Source: Acidobacteriota bacterium (GTDB taxonomy: Bacteria > Acidobacteriota > CAIWXX01). Taken from it: a stretch of DNA of 38,479 nucleotides. The position numbers were made by a program, and so were the translations under genes. Positions 9,884 to 26,641 of this stretch are shown piece by piece (the first letter of the stretch is position 1; every line of letters starts with the position of its first letter). The stretch is taken from contig JACPPM010000233.1 in the NCBI GenBank assembly GCA_016191015.1, forward strand, positions 1 through 38,479. The letters are read 5' to 3'. The notes under the pieces were generated by a model, which did not search any database, had not been told where the DNA came from, and was given only the letters and a program-made list of their open reading frames with translations.

Positions 9884-10930
9884 ATGGGACCAGCAGCGTG
9901 CGCGGTCAGGCAGAGGGTGACGATCGTGTCGCCGGAGAGCGGCAGATTGCGCCGGCTCATGATCGTGTCCAACGTCCTGGATGGCGGCGTTTCGGATGTC
10001 TCCGGCATGGAGGTCGCCTCGACGGATTCCCCGACCGGCCGCGCCTTGCTCGGGATGCCAGTCGGATCGATTGTCGAGATTCAGGCGCCACGCGGCGTGA
10101 TGGCGTGGGAGATCCTTGCCGTGAACGAAGCGGGCTCGGTAGATGCCACGGAGGCCCACCGACTCGATAGTGCAGGGGAAAAGGCCGGCGCGGCGGAATT
10201 GTGCGAGCGCATCGGCAACTACGCGAGTGCCGCGCGCAGGTATGCGTCCGCGGGCGCACTCGAGGACGCTGGACGCTGTTATGTTCTCGCGGGCCTGTAC
10301 CGTGATGGAGCGGCCTGTTTTGACGGCGCGGGGAAGCTCCTGGATGCGGCCGCGTGCTACGAAAGGGCCGGCATGGATTCTGAGGCCGCCGAGCGATTCA
10401 TGCGCGCCAACAGCCCTATGCAAGCTGCGCGCTGCTATGAAAAGGCCGGCAGCTTCTCGCTCGCGGCCCCGATGTATGAACATGCCGGCGAGGACTTCAT
10501 GGCAGGCCGGTGCTACGAGCGCGAGGGATCTTATGCGCAGGCGGCGCGGTGCTTTGAGCGTGCGGCCAGCCATCGCCATGCGGGGATCCATTTCGAGCGG
10601 GCCGGAGAAATCGAGAAGGCGATCGGTGCATACGAGAAGGCCGGCGACTTTGTCCGGGCCGGCAGGCTGGCTGAAGACCGCGAGCAGTTCACCCGTGCCG
10701 CGGCTTGCTTTGCATCCGCCGGATACGAGAATGACGCCGCCAGGTGTACGGCGCGCCGTCACGAAGGAGCCGGGGAATGGATCGAGGCGGCCGAGTGGTA
10801 TGAGAAAGCCGCCGCGACCGACTGGTGGGAGGCTACCAAAGCGGCTCACATCGGAAAGGCCCAGATGTGCTTTCGTCAGGCTCGATCGGAGGGGAACCGA
10901 GAGGGTGCCTTGGATGAAGAGCAGGCCTGA
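9884..10930 (+). CDS. GreA/GreB C-terminal-like domain fused to a helical solenoid of 13-aa repeats
   Basis: 348 aa; DSPTGRALLGMPVGSIVEIQAPRGVMAWEILAV resembles the GreA/GreB C-terminal (FKBP-like) domain; residues 97-291 are 15 contiguous 13-residue units with consensus AGxxxxAAxCYEx. Confidence 0.8.
   Translation: MGPAACAVRQRVTIVSPESGRLRRLMIVSNVLDGGVSDVSGMEVASTDSPTGRALLGMPVGSIVEIQAPRGVMAWEILAVNEAGSVDATEAHRLDSAGEKAGAAELCERIGNYASAARRYASAGALEDAGRCYVLAGLYRDGAACFDGAGKLLDAAACYERAGMDSEAAERFMRANSPMQAARCYEKAGSFSLAAPMYEHAGEDFMAGRCYEREGSYAQAARCFERAASHRHAGIHFERAGEIEKAIGAYEKAGDFVRAGRLAEDREQFTRAAACFASAGYENDAARCTARRHEGAGEWIEAAEWYEKAAATDWWEATKAAHIGKAQMCFRQARSEGNREGALDEEQA
10172..10756 (+). repeat. 15 contiguous 39-bp-phased coding repeats (13 aa each)
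   Basis: Units read AGEKAGAAELCER / IGNYASAARRYAS / AGALEDAGRCYVL / AGLYRDGAACFDG / AGKLLDAAACYER / ... / AGYENDAARCTAR with no gaps; a 16th unit (AGEWIEAAEWYEK) follows after 4 residues. Confidence 0.85.
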
Positions 10931-14010: not shown

Positions 14011-14038
14011 TTGACAATGGTCTTTTTCGTTCTATAAT
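14011..14038 (+). promoter_or_regulatory. Sigma70-type promoter with perfect consensus
   Basis: TTGACA (14011-14016) - 16 bp - TATAAT (14033-14038). Confidence 0.75.
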
Positions 14039-14063
14039 GACGGCCGTTGGTATTGAATATTCC

Positions 14064-17000
14064 GTGCTGAACAAGTCCATTCTCCTTGTCGATTACGAGC
14101 CCAAGGGTCTCTCTTCGTTGAAATCCTACCTCGAAGGTCTGGGTTTCGCAGTTGATACGGCAACCGACGGCTCGATGGCGCTTGCGCGGTTTTTCGAGAG
14201 CAAGCCGGACATGGTCGTCATGAGCCCCATGCTGCCCAAGATCCACGGTTTCGACGTCTGCCGGCAGATCACTCAGAGCCCGGAAGGCAAGGACATCCCC
14301 GTCATCATCATCACGGCCGTTTACAAAGGCAGTAAGTATCGCAACGAGGCTATCCATTCGTGCGGTGCACGAGCCTACTTCGAAAAGCCGTACGCGGAAG
14401 AGGAGTTGACCGATACGATTTACAAGCTCCTCAATATCCGAAAGGACAAGGCTCCGGCACAAGCTCCCCAGGTGGTAAGGGCGGCAACACCCTCGCGCGA
14501 GAAATCGCTGGAGGATATGCTGCCTGAGCTCAAGTCGGACCGTACGATGCCTTTCATCAAGAAATCCGACGTGTTCGCGTCCCTGCAGCTCGAGAAGCAG
14601 AAGCACAAGGCCGAAGAGACACCCAAACCTGCGGCAGCGACCCAACCGCCACAGCAGGATGAGAAGTTTGTCACCTCCGAGGATATCTTCGGAGACGTCA
14701 TCGAGAGCTTCGAGGTCGGGAAAAAGGCAGCTCCCGCCGCTCCCGCGGCTCCGAAGCCCGAGCCACCTCCTCCTACGCCTGCGGTGAAACCCGCGCCTGT
14801 GCCCGAGCAGGTGCCGATCGTCACCGTGCAGCTCCCATCGCCGGCGAAGATCGAGGCTCCGGCGGTGCCCGCGACCACGGTGACATTCGAGTCGTTGGAC
14901 GAGCTTGCCAAGGTCGATCGAACTGTCAAGAAGGCCGCCCAGATTGCCGCAGCGAAGAAGGAAGCCGGGGCTGCTGCAGACATAGAACGGAAGTTAGAGG
15001 AGACGCTGAGCGGGCTGAGCCTCGACTTCGGAAAACCGAAGGCTCCACGAGCACCTGCCGCGCCTCCCAAGCCGGTTGCAGCTCCGAAAAAGGTTGCTGC
15101 TCCCGCGGAGGTGGCCCCGACCCCGATCGCCCCGCCCCCGGTGGCCGCACCTTCCGTGGTGGTGCCACCAGTAGTGGTTGCACCCGTAGGGGTGCCAGCA
15201 GAGGTGGTCCCACCGGTGGTGGTCCCACCGGCGGTGGTCCCACCGGCGGTGGTCCCACCGGCGGTCGTGACACCGCCGCCGAAGCCGGCACCTTTTGTGC
15301 CTCCGCCCGTCGCCAAGCCCGCGCCGGCTCCACAGAAGGTGGCGCCGCCGCAGCCCGTCGTTGCTCAAGTCCCTGTGCCTGCGATCGAGCCGGTCAAGGC
15401 CGCGCCTCTCCCGCCGGAACCGAAGCCCCAACCGGTCCATCGCGAGGAGCGGGTGGCGATGCCCGTCAAGTACGGGGAATACGTACTGCTCGAGAAGATC
15501 GCGACAGGCGGGATGGCGGAGCTGTTCAAGGCGAAGAGGAGCGGGCCGGAGGGGTTTGAGAAGATTCTCGCGATCAAGCGCATCCTGCCTCATCTCTCAG
15601 ACAACGAAGAATTCGTTACGATGTTCATTGATGAAGCCAAGGTTGCGGCTCAGTTGAATCATCCGAACATCGTGCACATCTACGATCTGGGCAAGATCGA
15701 GGATTCGTACTTTATCGCGATGGAGTACGTCCTCGGCAAGGATCTACGGACGTTGATCAAGGAGCTGGACCGACACAACCGGACGCTCCCGTACGAACTG
15801 GCGGCCTACGTAGGAATCAAGATCTGCGAGGCGCTGGAGTACGCGCATCGCAAGCTCGACTACGGCCAGAAGCCGCTGAACATCGTTCATCGCGACGTGA
15901 GCCCTCAGAACATCCTCATCTCGTATGAAGGCGAAGTGAAGCTCGTGGATTTCGGCGTGGCCAAGGCCGCGTCGAAGGCCCACCACACCACCCACGGCGC
16001 TCTCAAGGGAAAGATCCTCTACATGTCCCCGGAGCAGGCGTGGGGAAAGAGCATTGATCACCGCAGCGACCTGTTCTCACTCGGCTCAGTCGTGTTCGAG
16101 ATGTCGACGGGGCGGAAGTTGTTCCTTGGTGACAGCGAGATATCGACGCTCGAGGCGGTGAGAAACGGAAAGGTGATTCCGCCCTCGACTTTGAAGAGGG
16201 ACTTTCCGAAGCCGTTGGAGGAGAGCATCGTCAAGGCGCTAAAGCTCAAGGCTGATGATCGTTATGGGAGCGCCAGTGAGATGCAGAAGGCTCTGGAATC
16301 TTGCCTGGATTCCATGCATATGCGTCCTTCGACGACGAGCGTATCGGAGTTCATGTTCGAGTTGTTCGGCGAGGAGATGAAGGCGAAGGGGATCCGGTTC
16401 GAGCCGCGGAAGGCTGCGGCTCCGAAGCCGCACGAGCCGGTTGTGAGGGTGGAGAAGCCGGAAGTAAGGGTGCCACCGCCGAAGGTGATCGCGGTGGAGA
16501 AACCGGTGGTCACCGCGCCCGCCGCGGCTGTGAAAGAGCCCGCTCCGGCCGTGGCCGCCGCCGCCCCAGCCGCACGTCCACCCGATGTGGATTTCAAGCC
16601 GATGCTCGATACGGCTGTTCACACGGAATACAGGCAGGCGCGGAGCCGCCGGATGGGGATTGTCGGCATCATCGCTGCAATCGCTCTCGTCGCAGCCGGG
16701 ATCTTCTACTGGCGCAGCCGTACGACCGAATCGGCCCCTCCCGTAGTCCCCACTCCGCCGCCAGGACAGACGGCGCCGCCGGGCGCCCAGACGCCCCCGA
16801 CCACTCTGCCGTCCCAGACAACCCCAACCCCAGGTGTGACGACACCCGGGCAGCAGACGCCCCCGGCGGTTCTGGATCCTGCGGCCCAGGCGGCCGAGAA
16901 GAAGCGGCTGGAGGATGAGCAGCGGCGCCGCGAGGAAGACCGCCAGAAGCTAGCGGCTCAGCAGGAGGCAGACCGGCTGAAGAAACAGCAGGAGGACGAG

Positions 17001-17483
17001 GCGGCGAAGGCGGAGGAAACAAGGCTGGCTGAGCTCAAGAAACAAGAGGATGCCGCCGCCGCCACAGCGGCGGAAGCTGAACGGAAGCGGCTGGAGGACG
17101 AGGCCCGCAAGAAGGCCGAGGACGAACGGGTGCGCCTGGAGCAGCAGCAGAAGGCCGCCAAGCAGGCAGAAGTGAAGGAAGGCGATATCGTCCCGATCAA
17201 CCAGGTCGATACACCCCCGGTCGCGGTCACGCGCCCATCGCCCGTCTATCCTGACGTGGCGAAAAGATCCGGAGTCGCGGGAACAGTGAGGCTGAGTATC
17301 CTGGTATCCGAGACCGGCAGCGTGGTCGACGTAAAAGTGCTGTCGGAGACTGGTGGAAAACTGGGGCTCCTGAACGAAGCTGCCTCATCGGCCGTGAAGC
17401 GCTGGAAATACCAGCCGGCCACGAGGAGCGGCAAGAAGGTCAAGGTTTGGCTCAATGTCAGTATTCCATTTACTCTGCACTAA
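14064..17483 (+). CDS. Pseudo-receiver - Pro/Ala linker - Ser/Thr protein kinase - TM - coiled coil - TonB C-terminal domain fusion
   Basis: Receiver-like SILLVDYEPKGL...; kinase motifs AIKRI, IVHRDVSPQNIL, LVDFGVAKA, YMSPEQ; TM GIVGIIAAIALVAAGIFYW; TonB-C PVYPDVAKRSGVAGTVRLSILVSETGSVVDVKVLSETG. Start set to GTG 14064 because the track ATG (14037) overlaps the -10 box. Confidence 0.85.
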   Translation: MLNKSILLVDYEPKGLSSLKSYLEGLGFAVDTATDGSMALARFFESKPDMVVMSPMLPKIHGFDVCRQITQSPEGKDIPVIIITAVYKGSKYRNEAIHSCGARAYFEKPYAEEELTDTIYKLLNIRKDKAPAQAPQVVRAATPSREKSLEDMLPELKSDRTMPFIKKSDVFASLQLEKQKHKAEETPKPAAATQPPQQDEKFVTSEDIFGDVIESFEVGKKAAPAAPAAPKPEPPPPTPAVKPAPVPEQVPIVTVQLPSPAKIEAPAVPATTVTFESLDELAKVDRTVKKAAQIAAAKKEAGAAADIERKLEETLSGLSLDFGKPKAPRAPAAPPKPVAAPKKVAAPAEVAPTPIAPPPVAAPSVVVPPVVVAPVGVPAEVVPPVVVPPAVVPPAVVPPAVVTPPPKPAPFVPPPVAKPAPAPQKVAPPQPVVAQVPVPAIEPVKAAPLPPEPKPQPVHREERVAMPVKYGEYVLLEKIATGGMAELFKAKRSGPEGFEKILAIKRILPHLSDNEEFVTMFIDEAKVAAQLNHPNIVHIYDLGKIEDSYFIAMEYVLGKDLRTLIKELDRHNRTLPYELAAYVGIKICEALEYAHRKLDYGQKPLNIVHRDVSPQNILISYEGEVKLVDFGVAKAASKAHHTTHGALKGKILYMSPEQAWGKSIDHRSDLFSLGSVVFEMSTGRKLFLGDSEISTLEAVRNGKVIPPSTLKRDFPKPLEESIVKALKLKADDRYGSASEMQKALESCLDSMHMRPSTTSVSEFMFELFGEEMKAKGIRFEPRKAAAPKPHEPVVRVEKPEVRVPPPKVIAVEKPVVTAPAAAVKEPAPAVAAAAPAARPPDVDFKPMLDTAVHTEYRQARSRRMGIVGIIAAIALVAAGIFYWRSRTTESAPPVVPTPPPGQTAPPGAQTPPTTLPSQTTPTPGVTTPGQQTPPAVLDPAAQAAEKKRLEDEQRRREEDRQKLAAQQEADRLKKQQEDEAAKAEETRLAELKKQEDAAAATAAEAERKRLEDEARKKAEDERVRLEQQQKAAKQAEVKEGDIVPINQVDTPPVAVTRPSPVYPDVAKRSGVAGTVRLSILVSETGSVVDVKVLSETGGKLGLLNEAASSAVKRWKYQPATRSGKKVKVWLNVSIPFTLH
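15201..15260 (+). repeat. 15-bp tandem repeat x4 in the Pro-rich linker
   Basis: GAGGTGGTCCCACCG / GTGGTGGTCCCACCG / GCGGTGGTCCCACCG / GCGGTGGTCCCACCG encoding (E/V/A)VVPP. Confidence 0.85.
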
Positions 17484-21872: not shown

Positions 21873-22086
21873 GGCGCGCCCCGGAGGGGCGCCGCGGAGA
21901 TAGCCCAGGGCGCGAGCCCTCGGACTGACACGCACGATCGATGAGCCGATCCCGGAGGGACGGCTGAAAATACGCTCCCGGGATTGGCGACGCCTCAGTC
22001 GTCCCTCCGGGACTCCCCGTCCTCTTATCCACACCACCCCACCGATAAATCGGTGGGCTATCGTCATGCCGCCCCTCCGGGGCGCC
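21873..22086. mobile_element. Transposase-less element with paired ends related to the 24955-25604 IS200/REP-type unit
   Basis: Left GCGCCCCggaGGGGCGC...TAGCCCAGGGCGCGAGCCC...CCCGGAGGGACGGCTGA; right GTCGTCCCTCCGGGACTCC...CCCACCGATAAATCGGTGGGCTA...GCCCCTCCGGGGCGCC; same modules flank the transposase at 25056. Confidence 0.7.
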
Positions 22087-24792: not shown

Positions 24793-24954
24793 TAGGCGAG
24801 AACGAGGCTCCCGTCGATACAGACCGTCCTCTACCTCCGGCTAGGCGCTGCCGCTCCGTCACGTAGCGGGCGAATTGTCAGGTGCCTCAGAGAAATCCCG
24901 CAGTTCACCGCCGGGGGTTGGAGTAACAGCGTTCGACTGCTGATCGCGGCTTCC

Positions 24955-25604
24955 GCCCCGGAGGGGCGAAGCGAAAGTAGCCCAGGGCGCCAGCCCTGGG
25001 ATAGAATCGCCGAGACGAAGGCAGTCCCGGAGGGACGGCTGAGGGAGTAACTGGCGTGTCGCATTCATATGTCAGCGGGCTCTTCCACGTGGCGTTCAGC
25101 ACGAAGGAGCGGCGCGCGATGATCGCCCCGGCTCTGAAAGAACGCCTCTTCCCTTACATGGGAGGGATCGCGCGGGAGAACGGGATAAAGGCGCTCGCAA
25201 TCGGCGGTACCGAAGACCATGTGCACATGCTCATCTCCTTGCCATCGACGATGGCGATTGCCAAGGCCGTTCAGCTGGTCAAGGCGGGGTCTGCCAAATG
25301 GGTGCACGAGGAGTTCCGCGAACACACCGGTTTCGCGTGGCAAGAGGGCTATGCCGCATTCAGCGTGAGCGTCAGCCACGTTGAGCCTCTTAAGAATTAC
25401 ATTGCCGAGCAGGTTGAGCATCACAAGAAGCGGACATTTGCCGAAGAGTTTCTCGCCTTGCTGGAAAAACATGGAATCGAATACGACCAAAGATACGTGT
25501 GGGGATGAGAGTCAGTCGTCCCTCCGGGACTCCCTTCTCAATACCGTTCCTGATACCCACCGATAAATCGGTGGGCTATTGTCATCGCGCCCCTCCGGGG
25601 CGCC
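24955..25604. mobile_element. IS200/IS605- or RAYT-type element with flanking palindromes
   Basis: Left CCCCGGAGGGGCG...TAGCCCAGGGCGCCAGCCCTGGG...CCCGGAGGGACGGCTGA; right GTCGTCCCTCCGGGACTCC...CCCACCGATAAATCGGTGGGCTA...GCCCCTCCGGGGCGCC around the transposase. Confidence 0.75.
25056..25508 (+). CDS. IS200-like / REP-associated tyrosine transposase
   Basis: 150 aa; HUH-type EDHVHMLISLP; WQEGYAAFSVSVSHVEPLKNYIAEQVEHHKKRTFAEEFLALLEKHGIEYDQRYVWG. Confidence 0.93.
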   Translation: MSHSYVSGLFHVAFSTKERRAMIAPALKERLFPYMGGIARENGIKALAIGGTEDHVHMLISLPSTMAIAKAVQLVKAGSAKWVHEEFREHTGFAWQEGYAAFSVSVSHVEPLKNYIAEQVEHHKKRTFAEEFLALLEKHGIEYDQRYVWG

Positions 25605-26393: not shown

Positions 26394-26449
26394 AAGAGCC
26401 TCACGACATGATGGAGGCAATCGGCAAGACGAAATCATACTGACGATCG

Positions 26450-26605
26450 ATGCTCCCGGTGAACGGGAAGGCCGTTAGAGCGGCCGCTGCCCCGCAACTG
26501 TGAGCGGTGATGAAAACCGGAGTGATGTTTGCCACTGCCCGCGAAAACGCGGGTGGGAAGGCCCGGCGAGTAAAGTGAACCGCGAGCCAGGAGACCGGCC
26601 GGGAG
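26450..26605 (+). ncRNA. Cobalamin (AdoCbl) riboswitch
   Basis: GGTGAACGGGAAGGCC...CCCCGCAACTGTGAGCGG...TTGCCACTG...GGGTGGGAAGGCCC...GAGCCAGGAGACCGGCC conserved blocks upstream of a btuF-like gene. Confidence 0.92.
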
Positions 26606-26641
26606 GAGCAACAAAAATCCCTCGAGGGAGGGGGAGATAAT

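Follow-up and report, generated by a model that had tools for sequence, protein, structure and literature searches.

What could a Gre-type RNA polymerase (RNAP)-docking domain do in a protein that lacks the Gre coiled coil and continues instead into a long helical solenoid? The question is raised by a gene on the plus strand of the window (the whole 38,479-nucleotide stretch of DNA analysed here). The answer depends on whether the gene is real, on how far its N-terminal domain has kept the character of the Gre family, and on what kind of solenoid it carries.

The GreA_C-solenoid gene is conserved as a protein-coding gene

The gene (9884..10930, +) encodes 348 amino acids plus a stop, with the ATG at 9884 and the stop codon at 10928-10930, and joins a GreA/GreB C-terminal domain (GreA_C) to a solenoid of 13-residue helical units. 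A full-length relative of 364 aa, 44% identical, is encoded on the minus strand at L029:8416-9510, in the sole other genome of the same order among the 396 genomes of the phylum that we searched. Identity between the two genes is 0.62, 0.61 and 0.33 at the first, second and third codon positions, respectively, which indicates that a protein-coding frame has been conserved. The open reading frame (ORF) is real.

The N-terminal domain is of the Gre type

A GreA/GreB C-terminal-like domain had been predicted at the N-terminus, and the profile search and the structural model both bear this out. Residues 11-81 (9914..10126, +) match PF01272 with 33.5 bits against a curated cut-off of 26.9 (36.5 bits in the genome search, and 44.7 bits for the relative), and by sequence the domain matches Gfh1 and GreA chains in the PDB. 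In the AlphaFold2 (AF2) model the domain is made up of strands at residues 11-15, 22-28, 43-46, 63-68 and 71-80 and a helix at 50-55, which by inspection corresponds to an FKBP-like beta fold that includes a single short helix. When the protein was aligned with six canonical GreA proteins (five from the phylum and that of E. coli), S46, S49, P50, L55, G57, P69, G71 and E76 were invariant, and all elements of the Gre-type signature (S, SP, L.G, P.G, E) were present. The E. coli GreA sequence used agrees with the published numbering in its length and at residues S121, S124, D98, L130, D41 and E44.

In the motif STDSP (residues 46-50; 10019..10033, +), S46 and S49 align with S121 and S124 of E. 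coli GreA. The E. coli S121P substitution led to loss of RNAP binding in both competition and pull-down assays, while S124L led to loss of antipause activity with binding kept; specific RNAP binding by the E. coli protein seems to require both GreA domains (PMC7527559).

The N-terminal domain has diverged. It is 20-25% identical to canonical GreA in the alignment, and it contains a 5-residue insertion relative to GreA near residue 35 (residues 33-36 are of low confidence in the AF2 model). The best NCBIfam GreA/GreB score of the protein is 24.6 bits, below the cut-off of 167. In outline the protein resembles eukaryotic FKBP51/52, in which an FKBP-like fold is combined with a TPR-like solenoid. 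The divergence and this resemblance would fit a Gre-type domain that now serves as an FKBP-like module for protein binding in general, in a protein of FKBP-TPR type unconnected with RNAP. We consider this very improbable, since the protein matches none of the FKBP family profiles and has kept the Gre-specific signature.

The protein lacks the Gre coiled coil

In the GreA alignment both the protein and its relative start at the start of the C-terminal domain, with about 10 residues preceding GreA_C. An in-frame stop lies 8 codons upstream of the ATG at 9884, and the frame is closed in a similar way in the relative. Because the stop is directly upstream, the coiled coil has not been overlooked, and a wrongly assigned start was ruled out by the in-frame stops in both genomes; the reading of the protein as one without the GreA coiled coil was correct. 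What it shares with GreA and GreB is thus their C-terminal domain (PF01272), including the SPxG...LxG...PxG...E signature, and it differs from them in being a fusion protein that has a solenoid at the C-terminus and no N-terminal coiled coil with its acidic tip. Since D41 and E44, the tip residues that act at the catalytic Mg, belong to the absent portion, the known Gre cleavage mechanism is not available to the fusion protein. Apart from this protein, PF01272 has a single match in the genome, to a canonical GreA of 154-160 aa with a coiled coil.

Rnk, Gfh1 and Rv3788 likewise have a Gre-type RNAP-docking domain and no ordinary cleavage activity, but each has a coiled coil, whether short or long, and lacks a solenoid. 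These three proteins displace Gre factors in vitro, and Rnk, the coiled coil of which is much shorter, still binds RNAP and competes with Gre factors (PMC4598747). By analogy with Rnk, docking without cleavage is plausible for the fusion protein. It is rather unlikely that the protein is a competitor of the Rnk/Gfh1 kind, occupying the GreA site and blocking GreA or DksA-type factors, with the solenoid acting as a bulky or regulatory arm and not as a recruiter. A docking domain without an acidic tip would suit this role, and the single canonical GreA of the genome could be its target. However, inhibition by Gfh1 and Rv3788 acts via the tip of the coiled coil, which is absent here, and simple competition would not need a long conserved solenoid.

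The solenoid is built from 13-residue units of one helix each

A linker helix in the AF2 model (residues 82-96; 10127..10171, +) connects the two domains. Fifteen gapless 13-aa units had been read from the sequence at residues 97-291 (10172..10756, +), with a sixteenth unit, AGEWIEAAEWYEK (residues 296-308; 10769..10807, +), after 4 further residues, and repeat analysis confirmed this arrangement: residue identity at a lag of 13 gave 65 matches versus 22.7 in shuffled sequences (z = 10.8), and lags of 26 and 39 gave z = 9.2 and z = 8.4, respectively. In the alignment with the relative, GEWIEAA in the sixteenth unit is conserved, as is WWExTK in the C-terminal cap (about residues 309-335; 10808..10888, +), for which AF2 predicts a helix at 316-335.

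AF2, which was run on a two-sequence alignment of the protein and its relative, yielded a model with a mean pLDDT of 89 and a pTM of 0.69, the pLDDT of the solenoid block being about 91-97. As far as residue 279, helices of 10-11 residues recur at 13-residue intervals; those at the end are longer. The contrast with the canonical TPR that had been drawn from the period therefore holds: the canonical unit is 34 aa and has two helices, whereas here one helix is formed per 13 aa, and the protein scores below the cut-offs of TPR_1, TPR_2 and TPR_7. Kinship to TPR is clear, as TPR_2 matches the relative above its cut-off (37.4 bits versus 27).

The solenoid also resembles the eukaryotic TPR-like solenoids of IFT140/IFT172, with PF24762 (TPR_IF140-IFT172) at 30.3 bits, above the cut-off of 26.8 (the relative, at 17.4 bits, is under it), and with solved IFT-A chains matched in a PDB sequence search. 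A PDB fold search with the whole model gave high-probability matches to TPR, IFT-A and SNAP solenoids, yet with large rmsd and query-normalised TM-scores of at most 0.33 among the matches listed, so the overall superhelix is unlike that of IFT140/IFT172 or alpha-SNAP; across PDB and BFVD the whole model gave local TPR/SNAP/IFT-type matches only. These matches suggest that the predicted helices pack locally as in TPR proteins, and the low TM-scores and high rmsd suggest that the superhelix is shared by no solved chain.

The same type of solenoid is found on Ser/Thr kinases of the phylum

With the protein as query, 29 of 60 related genomes gave a match, mostly to the repeat region and inside ORFs of 500-1,400 aa; many of those that we read have an N-terminal solenoid followed by a Ser/Thr kinase domain (kinase motifs identified by inspection). 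The genome of the fusion protein encodes one such kinase, G000:C228 (830 aa), and a second AlphaFold model, that of its solenoid, again has 10-residue helices every 13 residues. A register scan of 12 solenoid ORFs (most, but not all, of them kinases) that ignored position 10 collected 292 units, the dominant spacing being 13. Identity between the kinase solenoids and that of the fusion protein is about 35% over about 120 aa. These kinases (G000:C228 and L030:371-2863, for example) thus share with the fusion protein the 13-aa unit with one 10-residue helix, located N-terminally in their case, and differ in having a kinase domain instead of GreA_C and far less Cys at position 10.

Taken together, these results indicate that the 13-residue period characterises a TPR-related type of solenoid in this phylum and is not unique to the gene. 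This weakens the original prediction in one respect: the period is real, but the protein shares it with the N-terminal solenoids of Ser/Thr kinases across the phylum. Since it is also joined to kinases, the 13-aa solenoid is used as a modular part. Our search of the literature on 13-residue-repeat solenoids found nothing on this unit.

The solenoid kinases form a large family (L030:371-2863, minus strand; L033:6045-8492, plus; L034:2821-5136, minus; L037:2176-4491, plus; L003:5821-8169, plus; and others), some members of which carry N-terminal hydrophobic segments. Two further ORFs, L031:1687-3315 and L032:6036-7733 (both minus; 542 and 565 aa), combine an N-terminal hydrophobic, membrane-like part with a 13-aa solenoid, with no kinase seen in either. 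L042:3556-7683 (minus), an ORF of 1375 aa, reads by motifs alone as UvrD/Rep-type-helicase-like and then as a 13-aa repeat region. A scan of GTDB genome contigs with short peptide patterns, which has limited reach, gave one solenoid kinase only.

Cysteines are enriched at position 10 of the unit

The units named in the original prediction as having Cys at position 10 are exactly those in which we find it: 3, 4, 5, 7, 9, 10, 14 and 15 (8/15). Eight of the nine Cys residues of the fifteen units thereby fall in one column; in 200,000 random placements such a concentration never occurred in any column. In the outside solenoids Cys occupies position 10 in 23 of 292 units (7.9%) and any other column in at most 2.1%; the difference between 8/15 and 23/292 gives a Fisher P of 1.7e-5, an approximate value because units within a single protein are not independent of one another. 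The enrichment is real.

Seven of the eight position-10 Cys are kept in the relative, as are R119, R171 and H236, which stand in the same column; with these polar residues the column may line a groove in the fusion protein. C132, C158, C184 and C210 are spaced exactly 26 residues apart (10277..10513, +), all four are kept in the relative, and together with H236 they form a conserved series on alternate helices. Such a ladder could bind metal or become oxidised, altering the solenoid and RNAP docking, in which case the protein would be a metal- or thiol-redox sensor. The position-10 enrichment, the regular spacing and the retention of 8/10 solenoid Cys and of H236 in the relative all agree with this idea. 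On the other hand, Cys retention is weakly above overall identity (nominal P = 0.046), and no known metal motif is seen in the Cys/His ladder. Moreover, about three quarters of the 292 outside units have L, I, M, A, C or V at position 10, and Cys prefers position 10 in the kinase solenoids too, so that small hydrophobic packing would explain its presence. This preference suggests that the column serves packing, and Cys at position 10 can be an ordinary packing residue. A metal or redox role is therefore unproven, and we regard the sensor as a very unlikely explanation.

The fusion is rare among the genomes searched and is encoded by a stand-alone gene

When the 396 genomes of the phylum were searched with a two-member profile, full-length matches were found in the two known members only, and the N-terminal domain alone (E <= 1e-9) again recovered these two only. 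The one homologue with the same fusion is accordingly the relative at 44% identity, with none in the remaining 394 genomes. The plasmids and viral contigs searched contained no relatives. As candidates for other Gre fusions we read 15 PF01272 matches in long frames; these appear to be canonical Gre-type proteins, in which a coiled coil is present and the upstream frame is open.

Comparison of the two neighbourhoods provided no operon clue, as only the GreA_C-solenoid gene itself matches between them: in the window it is surrounded by RND efflux genes, a gene for a heparinase-like protein and one for a protein with a haem-binding domain, and glycosylation and transport genes surround the relative. 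Elsewhere in the window, 14037-17483 (+) encodes a 1148-aa protein in which long Pro/Ala-rich linkers connect a Ser/Thr kinase to a response-regulator receiver and to a TonB domain at the C-terminus. The window also contains a strong cobalamin riboswitch (26440-26617, +; 94.4 bits) and two matches to the Acido-Lenti-1 RNA just above the gathering score (22038-22084, +, and 24954-25000, -), which hint at an acidobacterial source without proving it.

The closest published design is that of the TPR + GreA/B-C + PIN conflict proteins, which have variable N-terminal effectors, have been proposed to act on RNAP while it transcribes invader DNA, and are mostly encoded by stand-alone genes that have few conserved neighbours (Kaur et al. 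2021, PMC8195603). Both designs place TPR-type repeats and GreA/B-C in one stand-alone protein. In the conflict proteins the order is effector or EAD, TPR, GreA/B-C and PIN, whereas in the fusion protein GreA_C comes first and the solenoid sits where PIN would be; no PIN domain was matched, and GreA_C begins about 10 residues in, with no variable N-terminal effector or EAD ahead of it. Having neither PIN nor effector and the opposite order, the protein is not a member of this group, although by analogy it may work like these proteins in docking on RNAP. The shared combination and the stand-alone gene would also fit a protein related in design, one that senses or marks RNAP transcribing invader DNA. 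This seems highly doubtful given the differences in architecture, the lack of a PADLOC match, the lack of relatives in the plasmids and viral contigs searched, and the presence of the gene in both searched genomes of the order, which so far makes its distribution not patchy.

A candidate RNAP-docking adaptor

The transcription-machinery-docked scaffold of the original prediction is the most economical reading of the PF01272 match and the Gre signature, from which we infer RNAP binding. We favour a stand-alone RNAP-docking adaptor with a partner-binding solenoid and give this reading a probability of about one half. It is supported by the invariance of the Gre signature, including the S121 and S124 equivalents, by the confident two-domain model, by the full-length relative, by the separate canonical GreA in the same genome and by the modular use of the 13-aa solenoid on kinases; the divergence of the domain, the apparent need of E. 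coli GreA for both domains, the family of only two members and the lack of a conserved neighbour pointing to transcription speak against it. GreA_C would dock where GreA, GreB, Gfh1 and Rnk do, on the beta' rim helices that surround the entrance of the secondary channel. Without a coiled coil and acidic tip it could neither extend to the active site nor stimulate RNA cleavage in the Gre manner. The solenoid would bind a partner protein or peptide and hold it beside RNAP, and whether it is occupied could also control how the protein competes with the one canonical GreA of the genome.

The protein is a new combination of known parts that appears to be undescribed in the literature we searched. 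The bacterial secondary-channel factors treated in PMC4598747 carry a coiled coil. Tentatively, the protein could represent a new class of factors docking at the secondary channel, in which a ligand-binding solenoid replaces the coiled coil, so that RNAP is linked to a partner or responds to a signal (thiol or metal, possibly, via the Cys/His ladder) while the catalytic centre is left untouched. If the adaptor reading is true, docking would be separated from action at the active site, and a scaffold at the RNAP rim helices would become open to testing. The protein also shows a type of solenoid known on the Ser/Thr kinases of the phylum joined to a domain of the transcription machinery.
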